Source: Diadema setosum (taxonomy: Eukaryota; Echinodermata; Echinoidea; Diadematoida; Diadematidae). Taken from it: a stretch of 64,000 nucleotides of DNA. The translations under genes and the position numbers were made by a program. Under the pieces are notes generated by a model that saw nothing but the letters and a program-made list of their open reading frames with translations, did no database searches and was not told where the DNA came from. Positions 2,284-59,451 of the stretch are shown one piece after another. Each line of letters opens with the position of its first letter. The stretch's first letter is position 1. Where the stretch lies: assembly GCF_964275005.1 (NCBI RefSeq), contig NC_092693.1:24269122-24333121 (forward strand), written 5' to 3'.

Positions 2284-11985
<9,702 letters not shown>

Positions 11986-15000: not shown

Positions 15001-15600
15001 TTCAATACTCATGAATAGGCTTAAATTACACACCGTAAATTTGAAGTTACTCCAGCTTCTTACTTTAGGTCTCATTTGGATAAAAAAATCTTTCCTTTCC
15101 CTCTATTTATACTTTATATTTGTAAAATCAACTTTGAGTTGGTGTGCACGTGTGATATTACTGATTATGGGCACTGCTCGTGCTCAAAATTCAAAAGTCG
15201 GGTGCGTCTCTAACCATCAGACCATTGCTAACGAAGTTTAGCAGGGAGGCAGGGCATGGCATCCAAAAAGTCCACGACGATGGATGCAATGCCAATGACT
15301 GTGTTTTCATGGGTACATGCGCATGCCATATAAAATACCAGGCATTGTGCTTGCATGAGCATGATGAGTCCTAATATTGTTACTTTTTACCCCATTTTGT
15401 ATACTCCTTTTTGCAGATTGTTCAAGCGAAGCCGCACAATACACATTATTGACAGCAGAAACCATCAGTGTACAACTACAAGAACATCTTGCCAGGTAGA
15501 TAACAGACGTTATCACTGTGACAAACATTTATGCGACTACTATACTACTACTAGCCTAGTCATTGCCCATTTGACAGAATAGTCAATTAAACTTTTACAA
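12001..15600. other. Intergenic region between divergent tubulin and PSMG4
   Basis: The two genes are transcribed away from each other. No coding exon was recognised. It has an (ATGA)n run at 12152-12195, poly-A near 13025-13046 and CAA/ACC-rich patches near 13918-13960. Both promoters should lie here, but no certain TATA or initiator was identified. Confidence 0.6.
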
Positions 15601-15700
15601 GAGCTCTCCAGAGACAAGAGAGGTGCCTGCTAGTTTCTCGAGGATATCACCTGCCAGTAGATGGTCCTTCACTGCTTCACCAAGCTTCTATCTTTTCCCA

Positions 15701-15916
15701 ATGGCAACATCAACATCAGACAGTAACGGGACAGAGCGAGAGGTGGCATCAGCCGATCCAGCACTGTGCAGACTGGCGGTGCACAGTTTCTCAGAGAAGC
15801 TCCTTGACACTGAGATTTTCTTTCATGTGACCAAGCTTATGGACAGCTTTCTGTTGTGGATTGGGAATAAGCCTGCTCATATGTCCAATCTTGCTGTTGC
15901 TTTGAATACAAGATGT
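15701..15916 (+). CDS. PSMG4: PSMG4 exon 1
   Basis: This exon has 72 codons from M-A-T-S-T to L-N-T-R-C, ending at a GTAAGT donor. The first 20 or so residues (Ser/Thr/Asp-rich) are not conserved; family similarity begins near L-A-V-H-S-F-S-E-K-L. Confidence 0.92.
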
Positions 15917-18900
15917 GTAAGTGGACCAGTCATTTTGTCCAAAGTGCATTTGCCAGGCAATCGATGCTTACAGTTCCACAATTCTAGTATTTAAGTATTT
16001 TAAGCTTTAAATGTGATTTAAGCTTTTGGAAAAAAAGAAAGTCAGTGTGGAAAAGATTCTACAATTAGTTCCTATCTATGTCATGATTGTAAGCAAAAAC
16101 ACAGAATATGCCATGATTCAAGTGATTACTGTGTCCAGTCAACATTCTACCAGAGCCAAGACTCCAACCCCAAACATCTCATAGAAAAAAGATTATCCTA
16201 CCTGGACCCCCTTATTTGGAGACTCTTATTTCACAGACAAACACAGTATTGCTGTATGTGCTCATAATACACATCATGGGCACAGGCACAAGTAAATACA
16301 TGTGGCTTGGGTCCAAGGCCCACTTCAGGGCAGTGGAAGCTCTGTGATTCTTTTTTTTTTTTTCCTTTGGCTGTCTAAGCCTTTATTTTGAACATGTATG
16401 ACAAGAATAAACTTGGGCTTAAGACAGCTCAATCTCACATTTTTGTTTGATGTAACAAAATGAGACAATTGACATGAAATGTTTTACTTTACTATTTAAG
16501 CTCAGTAGACCATCAAATAGGGCATCCAAAACAGCTGCTTTGGTCATACATTTGTCTGACTTTGTCTCGGGATAAAAGTTTTTCAAGAAGCTTCCACAAT
16601 GTCGGTCAGTTTATGCAGTTTCTCAGAAGAAAATGAATCTTGCTATATTACTGTTTGCAAGATGCCAACTATACACAGCCCAGTCACTGCTGTAGTAGCC
16701 TGTTGCTTACAGCAGCGACTGGGCTGTGTATAGTTAGCAAGATGCATCAAGTTGTGATGTACAGAAAGTTCTCAAACTGTTTTGTTTCTATTTTATCTTT
16801 TCAATAGGACAAAGTTCCCAGCGCAGCAATGTTGCTTGGTGATACTGCCAATACACAGCCATCCACTCTGGCACAGAAATTAGGTGAGTCTATGTAAATG
16901 ACCATGTCACTTTAACCCGTTGAGGACAAGTCAGGAGCATAATCGGGCAGGTGTCTATGGGAAATGCGTGTTATAGTAAAATCGGTCCGTCCTCAATTGG
17001 TTAAGCTCATCTTGGCCACCATAGTTGACAATAGTTATTATTGTCATTATGATTAGGCATGCCTACCATGTTGTATGTCTCTCCAGTACATAAATTTAGA
17101 TGGTTGTGTCTTTGTCCCTAAAATGCTGGTGTATGTATGCAATTTTGGCATCTTATTTCAAAGGAACAAAAAGGAACAATGTCCAGTATCGTGCTGTATT
17201 CATGTGAAACTATACAGAATAGCAAAAGCATTTTCCATTAAAGGATGGTGAACGAGACATTAAAATCAAGAAAATCATACAAAAGAAGGTGTCAAAGCAG
17301 AGGGAAATGTCTGTTCAAACAGATTTTTTATGTGACTTTTTAAAATATATTCGTACCACTGAAAAATAGCGAGTTAAAACTGACTGATTTACTTCACCGA
17401 TATTCGCTCCAGAACGGCCGTCTTTTTCGGGGCCCTAAAATATGACGTCATGACGTGGACGAACGTACCCTTTACGATCGAGTGTGCAGCGCTAGCTAGC
17501 TCTACATCGAGTCCGCCATTCATAAAGCACGACCGGGTCGTAGTTCTTTGTGAGCGGATGCAATACAATACTATACCTTGCCTGTCTTTAGTCGCATCTG
17601 CTTTATCGGCAGAAGCAGCAGGGTAAAATGTACCATTATTTAAAAAAAGAAGAAGAGATGAATGAATAAATAAATAAATAGATAAATAAATAATAGCCAT
17701 AATAATACTAATAATATAGTCTGAAGCAACGTCAGTAGCGAACCGCCGAGTCCCCGCCGAAGAGCTAGTTTGGTGTGTATGGTAGCCCCACTACATATCG
17801 ACCACATTCTTTTAAACCGACCGTGTATAATTCGCGCACTGAACACTTAGTATGCACTTCGTCTGCGCGCAAAGCACATAAAAATGGATCGGCTTTGAAT
17901 GTACACGAGGATGGTGTGGGAAAACGCGATAATTCACTGTTCATTAATGGTTTTAATCAAGGACAAAATTTCGAATGAATATTTTCACCGAATCGTAATG
18001 ACAGCACAATGTAATGTCTATGGAAGTTCCTAAAAAGCTTCGTTGACGTTTTCTACAACACGGTGTTCAATACAACTCGGTTTGCGTGCATTGTCAATGC
18101 AAAAAACAGCGGTCGATCCTGATAACGCGATTAACCGCGGGGAGCTGAAACGAGGCCACGCTAGTTCGTCGGCGATATTTTTGCACTGAAACTTCGAATC
18201 GAAAAGGGAACAACGGCATTTGATAGAGCTGGATTTTCTCAATCACGTAGGTCAAGTTTTTTACGTGAATTTCAGTGTTAAATATTCTTATCAAGCAAAT
18301 AAACATTAGGCGGTCGATGAGTAGTAGGTCCAACCCTACATAGGCTACTCCACTACGTAGATCCTTACGTTAGCTAGGTCAGAGTTCTTGTTCTACCGTA
18401 ACGTTAGGCTCTACTACTGTACTAACTAGGCCTATTAAACGGTTACTATAAGCCGTTTAAGAGTAGAGACTGAGGCGCGAAAGCGCAAGTAGAAATTTAA
18501 AAAGGTATACTTCATGGTAATTCGAAGGAAGATGGATTCAATAAGTGAAATTATAACTCACTTTTGCTTGATAGAGTAAACAAGACACGTACAGATACCT
18601 CGGTGCACTCAGGTCATCATGCGGAATTCATGCTTTGAATGCGAACCACGGCGCGCTCGGCGTGATACAGAGCGTAGCTTAGGTGCAAAGTTAGCTAGCG
18701 TATCACATCAGCGAGCGCAGGGCTGATTCATCCATGTCATGACGTCATAATTTCGGTCACCAAAATTTTGCCATCAGATCGGGTTCAGGTGGTCTAAAAA
18801 GGGCCTCAAAACACCATCTCTCAATCGTTCTAAAGACATTTTCACCTTCTGAAAGTTAACTATTCATATTCCTAGAGACTTAAGCTTTGCAGAAATATAT

Positions 18901-26900: not shown

Positions 26901-26922
26901 AGTGCAAGTTGATTTTTGCAAC

Positions 26923-28192
26923 ATGGAGACTGCACAAGCACAGTGGAGGCCGTGGATGGCTGCTAGTGAAAAGAAGGTGTTGATGGACCTGGTGAAACAA
27001 CAGGCTCCAGACTTATTGCAACCTGGAGAAGTTAAGAGGGTCTCCAAGGATACATGGGAGACCATCACCTCACAGTACAATGCCAGGACCTCCGTCAAGC
27101 GATCCACCAAGCAACTCAAGTCATTCCTCAAAAACATTTTGATCAAGTCGCTTAAGAAGCGGACAAACAACAACTCCTCACTGCCCTCCTTCAAGACCAA
27201 CTTTACGCCGTATGAAAAGAGAGTCCTCATAAACCTGGCCAAGAATTGCATGGTGCTGTTTTCGCAGCTGAAGGATGGCGACACGCAGAAGATGAAGAGA
27301 AGAGCCTGGTCCAACATGATGTGGGCCTTCAACCGAACTCAGAGCATCACAACGCCGAGGACAGCCAGGGAGATCAAGACATGCATCATGAACATGTTGA
27401 ACAGGTCGCAGGAGAGAGACGTGCAAGAGCTGAAGATGAAAATTAGGGAGTCCAATTCCACAAATGTCTTTGACTTTGGCCAACCTCTGGAAATGCTCAC
27501 TGCCGGGACGCCCTCTATGCTGACACATGCAGATGATGCGCCTCAGAATCCCAGAGTGACGATGCAGTCCACTTCTCATATTCAGTCACTGACAGGCAAA
27601 CTGCACTCGGGCAAAACTGGCATGACCATGAAAGGATCATTCTCAGGACAGCAAGGACTTTTGTTACTCAGTGATCCTCTTGAACAACCATCCGCCAGCC
27701 AGAGGCAAAATATAGCAAAGGCTACCACACCTCCAACTCCGCCAGTACTCATTCCCAAATCAGGGCATCTCAAGGGACAAATTTCATCCCGCAGACCTTG
27801 TCCCCGACCAGACACCAGCCTTCCATCGGGAAGGGTAGCGGCAAAATCCGTCCAGCAGTCATCAGCTGCCTATCCAGTAATGTTGCAGGCTTCCAGCTAC
27901 CTGCCAGCAGACGTGTGTCAGGTGCCATCACAGACCTCATCTCTGCACTTGCCGACTCCAGAAGGAATTCTGCCGCGCCCGTCCAGTGCTGAGGACTCAC
28001 GGCTGGGACATGCTACTTCCATTCGACAGGAACCCATTGATGTGGATATTATTGAAATCAAAGAAGAGCATGAAGACTTGCCACTGGATGACTTAGAGGG
28101 AGCTCCCATCATTGAGAGGTCACCTGATGCCAAGAGAGGAAAGCCCATTGAGCTGACGGACGGAGAGGCAGTGACAGGATCTGGGACTCCTG
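26923..28192 (+). CDS. Myb/SANT-like gene exon 1
   Basis: This exon encodes both Myb/SANT-like domains, the Ser/Pro/Gln-rich linker and the acidic SUMO-motif segment. It ends with one base of a Gly codon at a strong GTAAGT donor. The frame stays open for 423 codons, unlike the surrounding non-coding sequence. Confidence 0.88.
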
Positions 28193-30911
28193 GTAAGTGA
28201 GAATGAAACAGCAAATCATGGTTACTTACTTTCATAAAGTTTATTCATTCTCTGAATGCATCCCCAGTTCATTATGTACTTATGTTACAACCTCGTTTTT
28301 GTTTTTATTTTTTTCAATCATCACAGTGTCAGTGTTCAGCAAAGCAACACTCAGCAAGCTTTAAACAGTTAAGTTTTTATGGGGGTTACTGCAATCATAG
28401 AGATATACAATAATTTCAAATCACAGGATGAAAATAGTGGCTATGGCAAAATAGTAAATTTCAGGTTTTGTTATTTTGGCCTTTAATAGTGAATTTGCAA
28501 CAAGTTTGTCATAAACAGCTGTTTTTATGTTCTTTTTCATCAATGTATTTACTTCTACACACCCTGATGACAAATATGTGATATGCTCAGTACAATGTGT
28601 ACCTACAAACTGATCACTTATTGCTCCAACAAGTCTTTTTTTTATTATTATTATTGATCACTTGTTAATTGTGACTATAATACTAACAATGATAATACTT
28701 TCATACATTTATTAAGCACTAAATACAGATGTTTCTAAGTGCACAGTTTACCGGAAAATTATCATTTACTCCATAATAATACAAAAATTTAAAAGAAGCG
28801 TATAATTCAAATAATAAGTACGATAAATAGATCAAATTGAAAATCAAAGTCAGTGTGCACCTCCATTGACCAACCCACAACTGGACCATTCCAAAGGACT
28901 ATCTGCAACAAAACAAAACAAAACAAAACAAAATTTAAGCAGAGTCTAAACCCCTTGAAAACGGGCTGACTTTGCAACAACACGCATTTCCCATAGACAC
29001 CTGCCCAACTATACTCGGGACTCGTCCTCAGTGGGTTAAACTGATTAATGGAAGTGACGAGATGTATATAGGCAGGTAGAGAAATCCAGAGAGAATGGGC
29101 AACTGCAGAAAAAGCATGATCACCTATTTTGTGGATCGTAAGTGTGAGGTCCAGGAGTCTAACTGCATTGTAGAGGATGAACGGAGGGATCTTGAGGAAG
29201 TAGTGGAACGTAAGGAAATGAGATCTGTGAGATCTTGTTAACTTCCCTTTTTTTGGAGACATTTCATTGTTGTTAAATTTGTTGTTCCAAATTTCTATGA
29301 AGATGAGGTTTGTAACTTGATTTAAATGGGAATATGAATGAATCCATGAATGGTGAATGTATGCTGGTATTGACTCGTTTGAAACATTTGATGTATTCCA
29401 CTTAGAATGCCTACATATTGAAACATTAGTAAGGTATAACCTATGAAAGCTGCACCAGCCTTTGACCAAAGAGCTAAGTAAATGCTCTCTTTCTTTTCTT
29501 TCCTCTGTGTTTCTTTTGCTTTTTTTTTTTTAGGGGGGGGGGTTAAGGACACTTGTGGAATGACTTGAACGTACTGTACAAAGACATTGGAACAAAAACA
29601 CCCTTCACTTATCTTTCCATGAATTATGCCATCACCATACAGCTCTGTGATGTGATGTGATGTGATGTGATGTGATGTGATGTGTGATGTGATGTGATGT
29701 GATGTGATGTGATGTGATGTGATGTGATGTGATGTGATGTGATGTGATGTGATGTGAAGTGATGTGAAGTGATGTGATGTGATGTGATGTGATGTGATGT
29801 GATGTGATGTGATGTGATGTGATGTGATGTGATGTGATGTGATGTGATGTGATGTGATGTGATGTGATGTGATGTGATGTGATGTGATGTGTGCAACACT
29901 CGATTGTCTCCCTAAAAGCTCTGTGTAGCCTTTCTAATGTGGCTGTCAGAGTGTGAATATCAGCAACTTTGATTGCTAGATTGGTAGCTGAATGTTTTAG
30001 AAGGTTACAGGTGGAGATGATTCTTGAGAATAAAGTGATCATTAGATCATGTGAATAGCAATTCGTCTTCTGACCAAAGATTATTCTGTATCTTCATGTT
30101 TGCTGCCCTCATAGGTGGTGGTGATGTGATCCAGCTGGAGAAGGTGACAAATGATGCTGCCATGTACAGTGGTTCCTCTGCCAACAGTTCTAGCACAAAC
30201 CAAGCAGAGCCAGGAGGTATTCATATAGTCGTCCACCAGAATGGTCCTGAGCCTGTCTCCATGGAGGACACATTGGTCCCACCATCCTCCCGGACTCCTA
30301 CCACTCCCACCAGCCAGCCACACCGGTCACAACCCCACCCCCTGCGAGGGCACTCCCCTCAGCTGCACCCATCCCCCAGCCCCGGCGGAGGAGGGGGCAG
30401 CGGACACACACCGCTCAACATTTCCCTGCGCGATGCCAGCACAGACCTCTCAATGCACAACCCCGGTCTCATGCAGTCTGCAAGCGATGGGCAAGTGGCC
30501 CATGACGACTCGAGTTATCTTTTTCAGAATGCGTTGCAGGCAACAGAAGTGCGTGTGATGCCATGCGCCGACGGGCGAGAGGACATCCAAATGTCTGTAG
30601 AAAGTAATGATGTGATGTCAGCCAGTCAGAAAACGATGGCATTACGGCACGCTGGTTCCAGACAGTCGTGTAACCCAGCTCAAGCAGCGATGCGGGCAAG
30701 ATTCCGGGGGAGGAAAGAGAGTCTTGGTAGACTGAAGAAGCGACTGCTCCAGGAAGAGTTTGACAAGCGTCTGACGCTCATGCAAGAAGAGCACGACGTC
30801 AAGCTGTCATTCATGAAAGACAACCACGCCATGCTGCTGGAAGAACATCGATGGAAGAGGGAGGAACATGAACTGCGCATGAACATGATCAGGATCAATT
30901 CAAAGTTTTGA
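26923..30911 (+). CDS. Tandem Myb/SANT-like DNA-binding protein, 2 exons
   Basis: Exons are 26923-28192 and 30115-30911, joined in phase 1 (GTAAGT donor, ATAG acceptor), giving 688 aa. Residues about 8-78 and 93-175 look like two Myb/SANT-like trihelix domains. The second is clearer, with F-T-P-Y-E-K-R-V-L-I-N-L-A-K, a central A-W-S-N-M-M and R-T-A-R-E-I-K. A Ser/Pro/Gln-rich linker follows. Near the end of exon 1, V-D-I-I-E-I-K-E-E overlaps a SUMO-interaction-like hydrophobic patch and a psi-K-x-E SUMOylation site. The C-terminus is a charged Leu-rich coiled coil (RFRGRKESLGRLKKRLLQEE and onward), as in MSANTD-type regulators. A nuclear DNA-binding regulator is inferred and the target is unknown. 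The start is the ATG in CAACATGG. A 5' UTR exon may join at the acceptor near 26855. The domain could derive from an old Harbinger-type transposon, as in related families. Confidence 0.85.
28890..29470 (-). mobile_element. Degenerate LINE reverse transcriptase C-terminus
   Basis: The minus strand encodes G-D-H-A-F-S-A-V-A-H-S-L-W-I-S-L-P, matching the gDRAFsvaAPklWNsLP block at the end of CR1/RTE-type LINE ORFs. A short TTAA palindromic element interrupts the 3' side (28945-29039), and a (CAAAA)n run lies at the edge. It sits within the Myb/SANT-like gene intron, in antisense orientation. Confidence 0.65.
28945..29039. mobile_element. Short TTAA palindromic element, copy 2
   Basis: It shares ACACGCATTTCCCATAGACACC with the copy at 16912-17004, in inverse orientation, and ends CGTCCTCAGTGGGTTAA. 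Confidence 0.7.
29643..29891. repeat. TGATG pentanucleotide array
   Basis: About 250 bases of nearly pure 5-bp repeat, with a few AAGTG variants near 29757-29770. It lies in the intron of the Myb/SANT-like gene, about 220 bases before exon 2. Confidence 0.97.
30115..30911 (+). CDS. Myb/SANT-like gene exon 2 and stop
   Basis: This exon encodes 264 residues: a Ser/Thr/Asn stretch, a Pro/His/Gly-rich block (P-S-P-G-G-G-G-G-S-G), a conserved-looking N-I-S-L-R-D-A patch and the C-terminal coiled coil with repeated E-E-H and K-R-E-E-H. It ends at the stop after N-S-K-F. The acceptor lies about 220 bases after a TGATG pentanucleotide array. Confidence 0.85.
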
Positions 30912-39680: not shown

Positions 39681-40257
<577 letters not shown>

Positions 40258-40459: not shown

Positions 40460-41345
40460 CAGTATGTCCCACAAAAAAAAAAATTACAACGGGGCCCTCC
40501 GCAATGATATCTTTAAGAATTAGTGAATCAATCTAAATACAAATTCAGGGTATGAAACTACAACTCATTGCCCACATCTTACAGAAATCCCATTCGATTT
40601 GCTTCAGTGGTCAAAGAGTAATGAGGAATTTTGTAGAGGATGTCGGGAATCCCTTCTGTCCAAATTCTGTCTATTATTCACACACAAGAGCATTGAATTG
40701 CTAAAATTGGAAGAATGAGACTCATGACATGCTTTAGAACAATCCACATTTCTCTGTGACCGCTTAACCAAATTGATTGGGGTTTTCTGCAAAATAGAGC
40801 TAAGATGTTATATTTTAAGACCCTGAAGTAGCACTTAGACAGGTTGATCATATAGGGTGCTATCAATTCGAAAAGCTGATTGTAATTTTGGGGGCGACTT
40901 ACTGCAGTATGTCCCCCAAAAAATTACAATCAGATTTCGCATTGATAACGCCCAATATGATTAAATTTCTAAGTGCTACTTCAGGGTCTTAAAATGTCAC
41001 ATTTTAGCTCTATTTTGCAGAAATCCCCATTCAATTTGACTAAGCGGTCACGGGGAAATGTGGATTGTTGTAAAGCATGTCATGAATCGGATTCTTCCGA
41101 GTTTAGCATTTTGATGATCTTGTGTGTTAATAACAGACAGAACTTGGACAGAAGAGATTCCCGACATCCTCCACAAAATTCCGTATTTCTCTTTGACCAC
41201 TGAAGCAAATCGAGTGGGGTTTTCTGTAAGATGTGGGCAATGAGTTATAGTTTCATACCCTGAATTTGTATTTAGATTGATTCACTATTTTTAAAGATAT
41301 CATTGCGGAGGCCCCCGTTGTAATTATTTTTGGGACATATAACTG
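40460..41345. mobile_element. Head-to-head pair of 440-bp TA-type elements
   Basis: Unit 1 (about 40460-40905) and unit 2 (about 40907-41345) are inverted copies. Each has ends like CAGTATGTCCCCCAAAAAAT, and TA borders the outer ends. The units meet at ACTG-CAGT. Within each unit the two halves are also related inversely (CAGAAATCCC...ATTTG...GGTCA in both), giving four alternating half-units. CAGT termini with a TA target point to Tc1/mariner-type MITEs. Confidence 0.82.
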
Positions 41346-46196: not shown

Positions 46197-47638
46197 TCAT
46201 AAGTGCGTTTCATACTTAAACCTCCTGCTAACATGGTCCCATAGCTTTGTGCTGGTGTGAGTGGGCAAACCGTGTATAGTTACTGCTGAATCTGGTTCGT
46301 CCTCATTGCATCTTTTCACCTCGCCTATTGCTCCATCGCTTCCTCTCCGCTGAGCTGTTCTGGGCACGGTTGTTGGTTTTAGATACTCAAACTGCTTTTC
46401 AAACGTTTGCAAGGTACTAGACGATTTGGGCGTGGGTGCAGTATTGTCATCATCCACTTTCACCACTGTGAAACGGCTGGCTTGGTTCTTAGGTGGGGAA
46501 AGACTTGCTGACTTCTTTGTTTGCTCAGGCGGGTTCGGTTTCTCTTTGTCGGCATCGGGATTGCATTCTGACGTTGAGGGCTCCTCTTTGACTTTCTCCA
46601 CAGTAAACCGACTGCCAGTCGACTTGGCAGAGATTTCTTCCAACTGTACTTGAGTTGCACCGAGCGTTCCCTTGCGTGGTCGGGTGACCTCCAGATATTG
46701 CTTTGTTTTTGTCGGAGTCTTTCCCCTTTGCGACTGACTTCCTTCGCTTTGATGGCTTGCACTAACAGAAGGCTGTTTAGACGACGATTTGGATGGAGGC
46801 GATGTTTCGGGAGATTTGGGTTTCAGGCGAGCATCCTCTGATACCCTGGAGATGCTGAATCTCGAACCAACAGTCCTGGATGGAGAAAGGGAGCGCTGTT
46901 TGGATGGAGATTTAGTCTTGTCTTCCTCTGGAACGGACGTAACCTGAAATCTGGAGGGACGTTTCTGATACAGTCCTTGGATGCTTTCGGGAGACGTCTC
47001 TCTCGCATCAGATGGGTGAAACAACACCACTTGAGGTTTTTGATCTCCATCTTCAGTCACCACTACACTCGGCAGCGCAGGCGCTGGTTTGTCTTGTTTC
47101 CTCGCTCTCGATGGCGAGTTCGATGAGGAGCTGGCTTTATTCTCCACACCAGCGAACACTTCGTTATTTTCACAGTCGAGTAGTTTGACTATTTCACTAT
47201 TGCTGTTGGCTCTGTTGTAGTGGTGTGATTGGAAAGGACTGAAAAGGGAGGCATCGTCAGTCTGGGAGTTGTTGGGCCGCGTCGCGTCACCAGGGCCTTT
47301 CTGAATCTGCTGCAGCTGCGATTTCAGCTGCCTCGCCAGCTCCCCGCCCGTGATGGTATTCAGAGTTGTGTCATACGGCTGACTTACGCGTCTGTCGTAC
47401 GCGTTGGCCATCAATGCCTGCCGCAGCTCCTCTTCGAACGTTCGCTCAACGGGAATCGACTCTTCCTCCGACGATTTCCTGAGCCGCTGAACTTGGCGCT
47501 TAACTTTCTTGATGGAGTCCCTGGTGCAGCAGATGGCGAAGATGAAGGAGAAGATCGCCGTGAAAAGCGTTGCCATGCCGATAAAAATCACCTCCTTGTG
47601 CTCGAGGATCCTGTCCCCAAGGTAAAAGGGGAGGTCGT
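46197..47638 (-). CDS. Receptor exon: transmembrane helix and cytoplasmic tail
   Basis: After an AACAG acceptor, the exon encodes a short juxtamembrane stretch (D-L-P-F-Y-L-G-D-R), the membrane helix, a basic stop-transfer segment ([12 protein letters not shown]) and a long disordered tail. The SRFx[V/I]xxV motifs lie at 46932-46955, 46842-46865, 46590-46613 and 46455-46478. A P-A-P-A-L-P stretch and basic Ser sites (R-R-G-S) are present. The stop is TGA at 46199-46197, after T-H-L. Confidence 0.9.
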
Positions 47639-48152
47639 CTGTTCATGGAAAGAAACAGAGAAGGAAATAGACTCATGATTACGCTGACACGTCAACCTCA
47701 TTACTTGAGCGGGACTTTTCTCGAAGTGCACATTAGCTATAATGCCAGCAGCGGATACTTAATAATGAAAATGTACGAGGCGCACAACACATGACTATGT
47801 ATGAGACCATAATGTTATGTGCACGTGGTGGGAGGGAAATAATTTTAAAAAGTGAGTATAAGGAGAGATGACAGACTTAATGAAAGTGCCGGCCGGTACA
47901 ACGTTACAGTTCCTCCCTTCTATAGTTATCTGGTGCCTGAACGGTGCAGAGGGTTGACTGCGAACTCTGCCTTGCCACCTTCTTCCTCGATATAAAGGCA
48001 GAAGAAAGTTCTAGACTTTACAGGTGAGTCATCAGAATTCTTACTTATGTCTAATGCGGCGACATAAAAACATAGTTATAATGTGAGGTGCAATATTCAG
48101 AGAGCGACAAAAAGTGAATGAGGGGGAGGAGGAACAAAGGGGGGGGGGGGAT

Positions 48153-48188
<36 letters not shown>

Positions 48189-51100
48189 AGGGGATAGAGA
48201 GGGAGAGAGTGGTAGAGAAAGTGTGTGTGTGTGTCCCCTATCAATCCAAGGAAGTACTCGGTAGATTTCACAGACAAGAGTTTGCCTAGCTTTATCTCAC
48301 TATGCACGCAAGTTCATTGCAGAATGAAAAGACAAATCAGAACAGTGGATGCCCATGGCCATGATACGAAATGTACTGCAAGATCATGAAGATATTAATA
48401 TCTGCTGGTGCATGACTGTGTGGAGTCTGTCCGGAAGCTTTTTCATCTACACGTATTTGCTATTGATATTCGATACCAGTGTTTAAAATAGCTACTTATA
48501 CAGTAGCTTCGTTTTGTCTTTTTATTATAAACCACAGACATGAACCGCGAGATGTAACATGAACCTATAGTTGAAGACGCGGAAGTAATACCGCCGGCAC
48601 CCGAATTCCACTGCCTCATGACATGCATATAGATTATTACTCTTTCCTGTGTGAGTATGGGGCTATCCCGTCCTTATGCAGTATGCTCATGACAGCATGG
48701 CCATACTTAGTATTATAATCCTTGCTTTTGCAAAGCAGGGGTCCCTGGGGTTCATCGAGAGATTTGCAATTACTGTGAAGTTGTCGGAATATGGCCGATA
48801 AGCCGTGGGCATTTGAAGTGTCATTCTACAACGTTGATTCAAGTTGACATTAAAGTACAATTCCACATAATGTTCAAGATGGCTTTAAAAAATAAAAGAG
48901 TAAAATCGGACTTGGAGTTAAAATTACAGATTTTGAAAGTATCATGTTTTCCCTGCAAAGTGGTTCCCCTGCAATTTCCCCTGCAGTGTTTTCCCTGCAA
49001 CGTTGGTGCGATACCCACTAAGCAAATAACAATGGTGATGACATCATCAACTCACAGCTCTCTCGCTGGTTCGTGAATAAAAATATCATGAACTGGTCAT
49101 TTAGACTGATAATTGAGCAACCCTTACAATACTATAGGGGCACTGTGGAGTAGTGGATAAGCCTCATGGGCCTGAATTCACGAAGGTGGTACAATTTGAA
49201 CCATGGTTTACTTCGTGAATTCGGGCCTTGAGGTCTCGAGTTGCTATACATACGGCCTGATATCATTGATGCAATCGAATATATAACCTCCCGTACATAA
49301 CGCAACCACTACCGGGTATGCTCTTCCATTGCAATACTTTCCGCGTACCTTTTGGGGTAATACTTTGCATTTTTATCGTTAACCGACTGAAATTGTTGTA
49401 TCAAAGCGTTATTTCACACCACTTTTCTCTTCTTTAGAGAAAGATTTAACACTTTCTATAGGCGTACGAGAACTATGTTTTGCATGTCTTTAATGCCAAC
49501 TTGCACATTGCGTGGAATTAACCTTCAGGCGCTGCCATCATTGCATCTTAAAAGTTTGCAAACATTTTCAAGAAATTGAGCCCTTGGATATTCCATATTG
49601 AGGGTGCCATCATGCACCTACGTGTCATGTACTATTACTATTACACACCAATGCATCCGGTAGTCTCGTCCGAGCTGTCGCCACAGTGATCCACCGAGTC
49701 ACATCGTAGAATGGACGGGATGCACCGTCCGTTGTCGCACTGGTACGTGTCGTAGCTCAGGCACAGGGCAATGTCTACATGATGAGAGAACAAACACAAT
49801 CGGTCATAATTATATCATATCAGTGGAGTACATCCTCCGTCTTCCTATTATTGATATGATCTTTCGATATGCATGCATAATCCCTGCGTGGGCAAATTGT
49901 TTTTCTTACCTAAACCCAAGACAGATCTTTTGAATCAACGCTCACAATAGCAATTCACTAAATCTTATTGAACTTTAACAATACTTCAGAGGAAGCTTGA
50001 TTTACGAAGGATATTGGAATAAATTTACCGTCAAAAGGATGCATTTTGTTTGCTGTCCTCGAAGACAGATGCTAAATACAAAGCGCAGGTACAGAAAGCC
50101 GCCCTCTTTGTCACGAGGGTAAAAGTCAACCCTTCCGTGATGCTCGCCCATGCCAAATCACTGGAAAGAACTATAGCCAAGTACCCAATCAATAAAGTTG
50201 ATGTACGTTCATTCAGCGTACCTGCGGGAAACATGTCTGTGAGCAAAGACACTTGGTTTCTAAGTGAACTTCCTAACAGAATTGTCATTGGTTTCGTGAG
50301 TAACGACGCCTACAATGGATCTTACGGGAAGAATCCCTTCAACTTCTCAACCTCAATTTTATCTCCGTAAGAGTGGATGGAGAAACAGTACCTCAGAAGG
50401 CGCTTCATTCCACTTTGATCCTTGTCAGTGACAGAGTAAAATTCACGCTTATCGTTTATTCACGAACATGGAATTTATATACTTAGTATAGATAGACAAG
50501 AATACGCAAAATGATATACTCTGCATGCTTTTGACCTCACACCCGACATGCCCGATGGTTGTCATATACAGCTCATTATAACAGAAAACTGCCTGCTGAA
50601 ATTTATATTTCAATCAGCCCTTGAAACTACGGTACCGTCAAAGAAAACCAAAGCCCAAAGAACAATATGGATCGAGTGAAAGCAGCAACATTTTAGTAGA
50701 ACGCATCAGTGAAAGATTGAGGAAAATCGGGCAATTGATGCAAAAGTTATGAGTTTTTAAGGTTTTTGGTGTTGTAATGACTGGAAAAGGAGACTACTAG
50801 AGTTCATGATGTCATGATTGTGTGGGCAACAATATAAAGAAAAGAAAAGAAGAATTCCGCAAAAATTCAGTTTTCATGAAAATTACACATTCCATCAACT
50901 TGTTACTGACATAATTATATTAAGGGTAATATCATTCCCCTGCTTTCTGAAAGAGGTTAGTCGAGGGCTCTTTCATTATGCTAGAAAAGTGAAAGTATGT
51001 TGAATTTTCTTTATATAATTTTATTTTCTTTATATTGTTTGTATTGTACATATATCATATTGTATATAATAATCTTGTCAAGCGTTCTTTAGGCAAAACT

Positions 51101-57100: not shown

Positions 57101-59451
57101 TCCATTTTCGACATTGCTGTCTATATCTGCGAACACAAATTGATGATTCCCGATAGATCGGTCATAGCATAAAGGTGCCAAGTTGTGTGATGCGTGCGTT
57201 AGGTTTTGCCTGTCGCATTTGTGATAGGTTGGCGAATAAAGTCTCGCTTTTCGTAAGCCGTTGCTAATGCATGCATATTGCGTCTTACAGAGTTATTAAA
57301 TGACTCTTCATATGTTCTATTACCTCCCTCAATAAATCTCAAGAAGATAAGACAAGGCCATCGATAAAGAAAAATACAAAAAAAAAATGTCTTCAGGCCA
57401 CAAAAAAAAAGGACTAAAGAGCGTTCAAAATAAGGCTAAGCTGTTGAATTATAGCTTCAAATTATGTTCGATTTGTTATCTCCCTCAAGAAGTCTTAAGA
57501 GGATAAGGCAAAGACGTTGAAAACTCCACTGAAGACACTCCACTGAAGGAAATGTTAAAATATCTTTAAAGAATAAGAATAAGCCGTTTAAAAACAAAGT
57601 AAAAACCGCTGGAAGAAAAAATAAAACTTCGACGAAACAAAAGACTGGAAGTATCGATTTCCTATTTCCCATCCATGGTGAAAACACCGAGCTCGTCCTG
57701 GACAAGCAGGGACATATCTAATGATGTCATGTTTGGGGGCTGTCCTACGAATATGATAGTCATGAATATGTATAAACAATGTGTATAAATTAGAATCCAT
57801 ACGTCATAACTACATAAATATATATATTTCATAAATCATGTTTCATGATTCGTAAGTGTGATGATTTAAGAACAAAAGAATATTATATCTAATTGTTCGA
57901 TGAAAATACGAAAGTGATGACCATGAATTTGCATGAAGGCAGTCTCTTACTACCGAGGTGGAAACTGGACAAATTCTGTTGCAGTGGTAATCGTCGGAAT
58001 TAACTTCCTTACCAGACACTGTAGTAAAGATCCCAGCGATGCCACGCCCACTCAGGTGACTATCTGTTGCCATGCGGACCTGGAGGTACGATCCCATGGA
58101 GACCACCTCTGATGGAGCGTCCCCGTCGCAAATCCGTCTCTTCGTGACATGAACGCCGCTCTCGTCCCGCCCCTGGATGTGGGTTATCTCCAGGTAGTCC
58201 CTGCTGCAGTTATCACCCGATCTGAGGTCAACCTCTTTCAGCTGAAAAAAAGAAGAAATTTCAGTGATAGGGGAAGGCATCATACAGCGGATTAGGTGAG
58301 ATGTGTACGTGAAAAGAGTTCATGCACTTTAACATACTGGCAAAGTACGGGAGAGCATACGGGTTGAAATAAGGGCCCCATATTGCATTGAAAACGAGTG
58401 CCTCTTAATTGAAATACCGTTAATGATGTAGCTAGCCTTCAATGTAACGAACGGAATGCAAATCAAGGACTAATTCATCTTCACTAGCTCTACGGCATAT
58501 GAATACTGTTCTCGAATGTATCCAGTGTCTGGTGTCAAATTAATGCTCTTACACTCCATATTCCCTTTCTGCTAATGTATAGAGACAAAAGCTTGGTCCA
58601 TTATCATTTCCCTGCAAACAACCTACAGTGATACCAGTATAGTGCAGCTGATTCGCACTAGACAGGTGTCAATAATGATATCACAGAACAGCTGTCCAGT
58701 TTACATTGCACGGATCAAAATAGATTAGCTTGGCACCTTTGCCCTTTGTTCAGAACAGTGATCCACCACTCAGTAGGAAAGATGAATTACAGCTTTAGGC
58801 AGTTAGGCAGAAATGAAGCTCGAGGAGTCAAACTACTACAACAAAAAACAACAACAGCATAATTCACAAGCTCATGGGTCCTGAATGCTAAACGTTCTAT
58901 TCTAACAACACATTATATGTTTACTCCTCATGAAAATGTTCAGTTAATGTTGGTAAACAATAATTGTTTTATAAGCTGTTAAAAGCATTCAATTGAAGGT
59001 ATGCATATAGATTTATCTGACGTAAAATTAAAATACAGCCCTTCACAGCGTTTAACATGCCATTTTATCTTCAGTATAGGACCTGCCCTCTCTATGGAAG
59101 AGCTTTTCCTCATTTTGTGTGCAGTTTATTCTGTCAAATTACTGAAATACTTTTGGCCATTATGCAGACGCAAGCATGCCGAGCAAAGAATCGGTTAGAG
59201 TCCATAGAGTCCAGCCTGAAAAGTCATATTGACCATAGGATGGTCCGTTCGCATGCCATCTCCTCAGTGCAGTGTGTCCACCGGAGGTAGCCTGCTATAT
59301 AGCTCACCTACCTGCAAGAGTACCGATCCTTCCCCGAGGGCCTGAATGGTGACGGTGCAGTTTGCGTTGGGTGGGTAGTAGAGACTCCCTTGGGACAGGA
59401 TCAGGTCCCCCGCAGTGCGGATAGTCCGGCCGCAGTGATGCAACATGTACA
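46197..59451 (-). CDS. CUB + LDLa single-pass receptor with SPAK/OSR1 docking-like tail (5' end missing)
   Basis: Exons are 59312-59451, 58013-58241, 49649-49774 and 46197-47638, joined in phases 0, 1 and 1. They give at least 644 aa without the signal-peptide exon, which was not found and may lie beyond the window. The ectodomain is one CUB (4 Cys; D-Y-L-E-I and A-T-D-S near G-R-G suggest a Ca-binding CUB) and one LDLa (6 Cys with D-x3-D-x3-D-S-S-D-E). A hydrophobic helix [20 protein letters not shown] precedes C-C-T-R. The roughly 440-aa Ser/Pro/Lys-rich tail contains four motifs: [24 protein letters not shown] and SRFTVVKV. All fit the known SPAK/OSR1 CCT-binding consensus [S/G/V]RFx[V/I]xx[V/I/T/S]. 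It ends E-T-H-L, a class I PDZ-type ligand. The ectodomain layout recalls LDLRAD2 and NETO proteins; orthology is not established. Confidence 0.87.
46455..46955 (-). other. Array of four RFx[V/I] kinase-docking-like motifs
   Basis: Four 8-residue repeats sit in the receptor tail, spaced 30, 84 and 45 residues apart from motif start to motif start. Each has Ser before Arg-Phe, Val or Ile at +2 after Phe, Val at +5 and an acidic residue soon after. The stretches between them are not repeated, so this is motif repetition rather than a tandem duplication. The SPAK/OSR1 consensus is established knowledge; binding here is inferred. Confidence 0.75.
48160..48186. repeat. (GA)n microsatellite after a G-run
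   Basis: A pure GA dinucleotide run preceded by a G-run at about 48140-48150, in the intron between the LDLa and transmembrane exons. Confidence 0.9.
49137..49245 (+). mobile_element. tRNA-derived SINE head split by a small palindrome
   Basis: GTGGAGTAGTGGATAAGCC resembles a tRNA-like A box, and TTGAGGTCTCGAGTTGC a B-box relic. Between them, at 49168-49227, is a hairpin with GAATTCACGAAG arms, which looks like a tiny inserted MITE. Confidence 0.55.
49649..49774 (-). CDS. Receptor exon: LDL-receptor class A domain
   Basis: This is a phase 1-1 exon of exactly 126 bases, typical of shuffled LDLa modules. It has six Cys (A-L-C, Y-Q-C, G-R-C, L-R-C, D-H-C, T-G-C) and the Ca-binding run [12 protein letters not shown]. 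It is too short to show as a long open frame. Confidence 0.92.
50020..50420 (+). pseudogene. Polinton penton-like (minor capsid) fragment
   Basis: The plus-strand translation resembles the widespread 'F54H12.2-like' proteins, which are Polinton minor capsid proteins. Only a short part remains. Family recognition is from memory of the conserved block, not from a search. Confidence 0.6.
50655..51020. mobile_element. One-armed relative of the family C TTAA foldback
   Basis: It shares with 32576-33142 the blocks AAGTTATGA, GGAGACTACTA, ATGATGTCAT and GTATGTTGAATTTTCTTTA, in the same order as one arm. The second arm and clear TTAA ends are missing, so it is truncated. It lies between the Polinton pieces. 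Confidence 0.7.
51880..52735 (+). mobile_element. Probable LINE 3' UTR and tail
   Basis: A pyrimidine-rich non-coding stretch ends in ACCACATTGAATTGAATTGA, the kind of GAATT-repeat tail that closes many echinoid LINE 3' ends. No ORF part is visible. Confidence 0.5.
53833..54177 (-). pseudogene. Polinton DNA polymerase B fragment
   Basis: The minus-strand translation shows the first two exonuclease-motif segments of a Polinton-type protein-primed family B polymerase, with a cysteine-rich patch between them. The remainder of the polymerase is not present nearby. It is in the same orientation as the host receptor gene. Confidence 0.72.
55931..56158 (-). pseudogene. PC4/p15-like ssDNA-binding fragment
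   Basis: The translation [13 protein letters not shown], then P-T-E-Q-G-V-A-M and E-W-R-A-L resembles the C-terminal DNA-binding domain of transcriptional coactivator PC4. It is isolated and lacks the usual N-terminal Ser-rich part. It may be an element-borne gene or a host pseudogene. Confidence 0.5.
56159..58012. other. Receptor intron, uncertain sequence
   Basis: Two minus-strand frames (56195-56497 and 56834-57181) have coding-like composition but no recognised family. They may be further fossil pieces. The rest is AT-rich intron. Confidence 0.35.
58013..58241 (-). CDS. Receptor exon: CUB domain, second half
   Basis: A polypyrimidine tract and CAG acceptor precede L-K-E-V-D-L. The exon continues [21 protein letters not shown] and [11 protein letters not shown], ending in one base of an Asp codon before GTAAGG. 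This completes the CUB fold with its second Cys pair. Confidence 0.88.
59312..59451 (-). CDS. Receptor exon: CUB domain, first half
   Basis: After a TTGCAG acceptor, the frame reads two bases of a split codon, then [26 protein letters not shown] and G-S-V-L-L-Q, ending at GTAGGTGAG. C-G-R and Y-Y-P-P-N-A-N-C are the usual CUB start and first disulfide. N-C-T is a possible glycosylation sequon. Confidence 0.85.

Follow-up and report, generated by a model that had tools for sequence, protein, structure and literature searches.

A 64,000-nucleotide stretch of the genome of the sea urchin Diadema setosum (contig NC_092693.1, positions 24,269,122 to 24,333,121 of the forward strand; hereafter the window) carries on its minus strand a predicted gene for a membrane protein with a CUB-LDLa ectodomain, whose long cytoplasmic tail contains four RFxV motifs of the type that docks onto the CCT domain of the kinases SPAK and OSR1. 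We consider it probable that this protein is a receptor or an auxiliary membrane subunit of the CULD/NETO type, in which the ectodomain binds a partner and the tail, probably disordered, acts as a multivalent CCT dock for SPAK/OSR1 and possibly for WNK. Its predicted sequence suggests that the kinase pathway of salt balance and cell volume is directly coupled to a receptor-like protein.

All four motifs lie in one minus-strand open frame, within a 442-residue tail behind a transmembrane-like segment, and the peptides are those that a previous sequence-only reading of this DNA had named. In the open-frame translation they are SRFQVTSV (residues 420-427; 46932..46955), SRFSISRV (residues 450-457; 46842..46865), SRFTVEKV (residues 534-541; 46590..46613), and SRFTVVKV (residues 579-586; 46455..46478). 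The spacers between them measure 22, 76, and 37 residues, and linkers of these lengths, if flexible, could hold several CCT domains. We defined the strict motif as [SGV]RFx[VI]xx[VITS], the consensus given in PMC10603948, and the loose motif as RFx[V/I]. When the tail was shuffled 200,000 times, the strict motif occurred on average 0.0054 times per shuffle, with one match in 1,075 shuffles, two matches in 2, and more in none, as against four in the real tail. For the loose motif, the four copies in the tail compare with a mean of 0.074, three copies being reached in 10 of the 200,000 shuffles and four in none. These numbers bear out the earlier judgement that four chance matches in about 440 residues are unlikely. 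In an outside control, we scanned 340,697 residues of six-frame translation from the window and 20 further loci (a few of them overlapping; L004 and L017-L026 left out), taking stop-to-stop segments of at least 20 amino acids. Nine strict matches were obtained, namely the four of this tail, two in the frame of a WNK kinase described below, and three in segments of 22, 42, and 58 amino acids.

The composition of the tail bears on the alternative that the motifs are a chance resemblance or a low-complexity artefact and have no function. The tail is rich in Ser, Lys, Thr, and Pro, from which we judge it to be probably disordered, and sequence of this kind is where short motifs arise easily. However, it contains only 12 Phe residues, 4 of which lie inside the RFxV motifs, never more than two strict motifs were seen in the shuffles, and the codons (see below) argue against a copied stretch of DNA, so that we regard this explanation as very improbable. 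The earlier reading had also pointed to acidic residues after each motif, and an acidic residue is indeed found at position 10, two places past the last Val, in all four. Asp or Glu occupies this position in 7 of 7 strict motifs of the tail gene, WNK, and NKCC, while the non-strict WNK motif has Ala there, and the feature is not common to the three chance matches of the outside control. The acid at position 10 may be an extension of the RFxV consensus (L011, C2:22199420-22199837, and L032).

We then compared the codons of the four copies at the positions set by the motif definition. From the first motif to the fourth, Ser is encoded by TCC, TCG, AGT, and AGC, Arg by AGA, AGA, CGG, and CGT, Phe by TTT, TTC, TTT, and TTC, and the last Val (V8) by GTT, GTA, GTC, and GTG. 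Identical codons were found in 3 of 24 pairwise comparisons, where random draws from the tail's own codon usage gave a mean of 7.3 (P(<=3) = 0.016). Since the codons resemble one another no more than random synonymous picks would, a recent tandem duplication of the motif at the DNA level was ruled out, and the copies would be either old duplicates retained at the peptide level or peptides that converged independently. The excess over chance and the codon result together thus argue for selection on the peptide. At the protein level, amino-acid identity among the copies is 0.60 within the motif and falls to 0.10 and 0.15 in its two eight-residue flanks.

The protein that carries this tail was reconstructed as a five-exon model on the minus strand, in which the motif-bearing region 46455-46955 falls within the last exon. 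The joined frame encodes 671 amino acids with zero internal stops, and its predicted order is that of a type I membrane protein, with a signal peptide, one CUB domain, one LDLa domain, one transmembrane segment, and the 442-residue tail. Exon 1, which encodes a signal peptide as recognized by eye, reads MTGAESGLVRILVLLLLCFARESRAT and lies 10.1 kb beyond the window (L027:251-329; contig C9:24343251-24343329), where it is followed by a phase-matched CAG|GTAAGT donor; at the end of the window and in the next 10 kb, no convincing candidate for exon 1 was found. The two halves of the CUB domain are encoded by exon 2 (59312..59451; acceptor TTGCAG, donor GTAGGT) and exon 3 (58013..58241; acceptor TTTCAG, donor GTAAGG), and the LDLa domain with its six cysteines by exon 4 (49649..49774; acceptor TGTAG, donor GTGTGT). 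Exon 5 (46197..47638) is a single open frame comprising the end of the stalk, the transmembrane segment (47532..47591, a hydrophobic stretch identified by eye in the translation), the cytoplasmic tail, and the stop codon. All junctions are GT/AG with matching phases, which places the tail exon in frame with the LDLa and CUB exons. The tail ends in ETHL (46200..46211), a class I PDZ-ligand-like end.

Domain searches agree with this model. In the spliced ectodomain, Pfam CUB scored 36.3 bits (cut-off 21.4; E 7.9e-9) and Ldl_recept_a scored 30.7 bits (cut-off 24.1; E 3.7e-7), the latter reaching 34.6 bits on the LDLa open frame alone; LDLRAD1_C matched below its cut-off. Together with the transmembrane segment and the in-frame junctions, these matches confirm the previous assignment of the gene to a CUB-LDLa membrane protein. 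No TNFR family was among the Pfam matches at E <=1, and no Pfam family matched the tail exon alone. PDB searches gave nothing meaningful with the tail (best E 0.073) or with the transmembrane and juxtamembrane stretch (best E 2.1). Further CUB domains were sought with the protein's own CUB as the query in the minus-strand frames between position 47651 and a point about 60 kb past the end of the window, a search of limited sensitivity. It returned just the two known CUB exons, apart from matches at E 7.1 and 8.5 that both lie upstream of exon 1 and are not CUB-like by eye; the protein therefore has one CUB as far as is detectable.

The same genome encodes candidate partners of the tail. Our genome searches covered the 912.7-Mb assembly, with scores for the best candidates. 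With Pfam OSR1_C, two loci were found, L001 and L002, and no match was obtained in 14 control genomes with either OSR1_C or SLC12. L001 is a CCT exon of SPAK/OSR1, which aligns with human OSR1 (2V3S, E 1.5e-11) and SPAK (7o86, E 1.2e-10). Leu473 of OSR1, at the base of the pocket, touches the Phe of the peptide, and its change to Ala is reported to cut binding more than 100-fold (PMC4512625). The equivalent of Leu473 is kept in the L001 exon as the L of GLVDGRD, the register being counted on the alignment. L002 encodes the CCT-like domain of a WNK kinase, with PDB matches to WNK3 (5o2c, E 2.2e-15), WNK1, and WNK2. About 48 kb downstream of it, on the same strand, an 838-residue open frame contains the three RFx[V/I] motifs SRFNVNPV, GRFTIAPA, and GRFHVDKV in a span of about 140 residues (L011, C2:22199420-22199837); the first and the third of these are strict. 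By its strand, its order, and an intervening CCT-like frame seen by eye, this open frame appears to belong to the WNK gene; the first scanned stretch of that gene has no strict motif, and the next stretch has them. On the transporter side, the genome has an SLC12 N-terminal exon whose best PDB match is SLC12A2 (E 1.7e-9), and in this 3.1-kb NKCC locus one strict motif, GRFQVNIV, stands ahead of TFGQNT.

We propose the following mechanism. The CUB-LDLa ectodomain would bind either a soluble ligand or else a channel or transporter located in the same membrane. SPAK/OSR1 would be drawn to this membrane complex by the four RFxV peptides, as might WNK by way of its CCT-like domain. The kinase would then phosphorylate the tail, the associated transporter or channel, or both, and a PDZ scaffold may anchor the complex through the ETHL end. 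A kinase at the tail may modify the tail itself, act in trans on a bound transporter, or be held in store. Selection on the peptides, their binding, their multivalent use, the direction of signalling, and a cation-chloride cotransporter or channel as the cargo are all elements that we infer.

Several points weigh against the probable reading of the protein as a CULD/NETO-type receptor or subunit with a CCT dock. The five-exon splice is a predicted model, in which the joins were chosen by splice consensus, reading phase, and the continuity of the domains. A random pattern of synonymous codons is expected equally of old duplicates that were retained and of motifs that arose independently, and by itself is no proof of selection. 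The contrast in identity between motif and flanks says little, because the search pattern itself dictates half of the motif, and the acid at position 10 is a trend over seven motifs. Finally, the partner is not fixed, because RFxV peptides also bind the CCT-like domains of WNK, and related motifs bind NRBP1 (PMC12266122).

The last point leads to the alternative that the motifs recruit another member of the CCT family, either WNK through CCTL1 or an NRBP pseudokinase, so that the tail would act in the manner of the TSC22D adaptors and nucleate WNK complexes at the membrane. In TSC22D2/4, motif A (RFRV) is described as binding the CCTL1 of WNK1 and motif B (RWTC) as binding NRBP1 (PMC12266122). 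Motifs that vary slightly within a single tail would be suited to more than one CCT partner, and the genome does encode a WNK CCT-like domain, but the tail motifs have the RFx[V/I] form of the SPAK/OSR1 type and the RW pair is absent from the tail, for which reasons we think this recruitment unlikely. A decoy function is more improbable still. Here the tail would sequester SPAK/OSR1 from NKCC/KCC and lower basal phosphorylation of the cotransporters for as long as the receptor stays in place without being engaged; four consensus sites per tail could compete with the one site in the NKCC locus, but only if the protein were present at levels near those of the kinase.

The likeness to CULD, a type of protein with a role in the endocytic turnover of receptors or channels, raises another alternative, that of a trafficking adaptor. 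Such an adaptor would carry an opsin, a channel, or a receptor along the endosomal route, and its RFxV motifs would mainly let SPAK/OSR1 phosphorylate the tail and thereby switch the protein's own sorting. The tail does have one YxxPhi-like match (YLEV) and one acidic dileucine-like match (EIVKLL), but both numbers are within chance, with shuffle means of 1.17 for YxxPhi and 0.23 for acidic dileucine, and the shuffles led us to reject sorting signals in the tail as anything more. In addition, four docks seem beyond what a substrate needs, given that the NKCC locus has one and that one is described for RELT. We therefore see the adaptor as a possible but minority explanation.

WNK-SPAK/OSR1 signalling is mostly known for responding, inside the cell, to chloride and osmolarity, and the RELT family comprises the only membrane receptors known to us that hold SPAK/OSR1 directly. 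A CUB-LDLa protein with four docks would provide a physical route from extracellular contact to the control of cotransporters. Extending the favoured reading of a multivalent CCT dock, we tentatively suggest, as a rather unlikely possibility, that the protein is an entry point into the WNK-SPAK/OSR1 pathway under the control of ligand or cargo. The tail would assemble several CCT proteins at once, with SPAK/OSR1 on some motifs and the CCTL1 of WNK on others, and so form a membrane-anchored, kinase-activating platform kept across a whole class of animals or more. A transporter bound by the ectodomain, as KCC2 is by NETO2, would then obtain a dock in trans even without an RFxV motif of its own. 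Docking in trans may be the mechanism behind links of the NETO2-KCC2 type, and KCC2b is described as being without the RFXV/I motif (PMC6538211).

The gene appears to be single. No second copy was found among the best-scoring candidates in genome searches with the tail and with the ectodomain. With the tail (exon 5), the only match at E <=1 was the window itself. The ectodomain gave 67 matches at E <=0.1. Four of these were exons of the gene in the window itself; among the remaining 63, the strongest reached 34.2 bits at 46% identity, and most span the LDLa domain only. A gene family was accordingly rejected, as the tail matches itself alone and the other ectodomain matches are mostly LDLa.

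The window contains several other features. A large foldback (inverted-repeat) element at 40513-41295, perhaps a transposon of the miniature inverted-repeat transposable element type, has arms at 40585-40839/40968-41222 with 89% complementarity and at 40513-40591/41217-41295 with 94% complementarity. A long TCTA/TA microsatellite block at about 39700-40240 shows up as open frames of repeated residues, the longest having 274 amino acids. A tubulin exon at 2287-3321 on the minus strand matches Pfam Tubulin and Tubulin_C above their cut-offs and is beta-tubulin-like by eye. On the plus strand, an open frame at 26902-28197 has two matches to Myb_DNA-bind_5, a Myb/SANT-like DNA-binding domain, and a possible exon of proteasome assembly chaperone 4 at 15575-15991 scored 29.8 bits, under the Pfam cut-off of 31.

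Among known systems, the protein is not without kin. Drosophila CULD (CG17352), with one CUB, one LDLa, and one predicted transmembrane segment (PMC4732287), has the same build, a likeness of architecture. NETO1/NETO2, Drosophila Neto, and C. elegans SOL-2 share the order of CUB, LDLa, and transmembrane segment, and the PDZ-ligand ends of NETO1/2 (PMC9083331) resemble the ETHL end, which would fit a class I PDZ domain; the NETO1 end is of class I. However, NETO/SOL-2 proteins have two CUB domains (PMC9083331) rather than the one detected here, on which ground membership of the NETO family was rejected, and the literature passages on them mention no RFxV motif. A PDB search with the ectodomain returned 51 matching sequences, with NETO2 (7f56_E) ninth by E value at 6.6e-8. 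Its match covers query residues 24-203 and, judged from this range alone, spans the CUB, LDLa, and transmembrane parts. LRP2, cubilin, and PCPE1 ranked ahead of NETO2 by E value over LDLa or CUB parts, and an enteropeptidase match over query residues 20-158 had an E value about equal to that of NETO2.

The sequence-only reading had stated that no CUB-LDLa protein with such an array was described. We found none with RFxV docks in open-licence PubMed Central (PMC) papers, nor any that pair CULD with Fray or RFXV or that name LDLa, CUB, and SPAK together. The architecture itself is known, being the same in CULD and close in NETO/SOL-2. The earlier proposal of a receptor scaffold for SPAK/OSR1 is supported in part by motifs that exceed chance and share the form of those in WNK and NKCC, and by a CCT exon that keeps the pocket leucine. 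It needs amending in that NETO2 is already tied to a cation-chloride cotransporter: this protein, which has an LDLa and two CUB domains, binds KCC2 and maintains its level (PMC3915100, PMC4585146), and the binding needs the CUBs (PMC9083331). NETO2 and SPAK co-occur in reviews of chloride transport, and the NETO2 passages of three of these draw no connection between the two.

For the tail, the comparison is with other carriers of the motif. The TSC22D2/4 proteins are mostly disordered and link WNK1 and NRBP1 through two R-Phi motifs, WNK1 being shown with five (PMC12266122); they differ from the present protein in having no transmembrane segment, in their TSC22 coiled coil, and in their two motifs, one of which is RWTC. 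The WNK and NKCC genes of this genome have the same motif form and encode a kinase and a transporter, not receptor-like proteins; against the four strict motifs of the tail, the WNK frame has two and the NKCC locus has one.

To our knowledge, the RELT family, which belongs to the TNF-receptor family, has no CUB and no LDLa. Membership of the RELT family was rejected for the present protein, which has no TNFR domain among its Pfam matches at E <=1 and an ectodomain composed of CUB and LDLa. RELT, RELL1, and RELL2 bind SPAK/OSR1 through an RFxV motif, given for the family as GRFRVxx[I/V], and are phosphorylated by these kinases, and the F350A change in RELT abolished both SPAK binding and p38/JNK activation, indicating that the motif is needed (PMC10603948).
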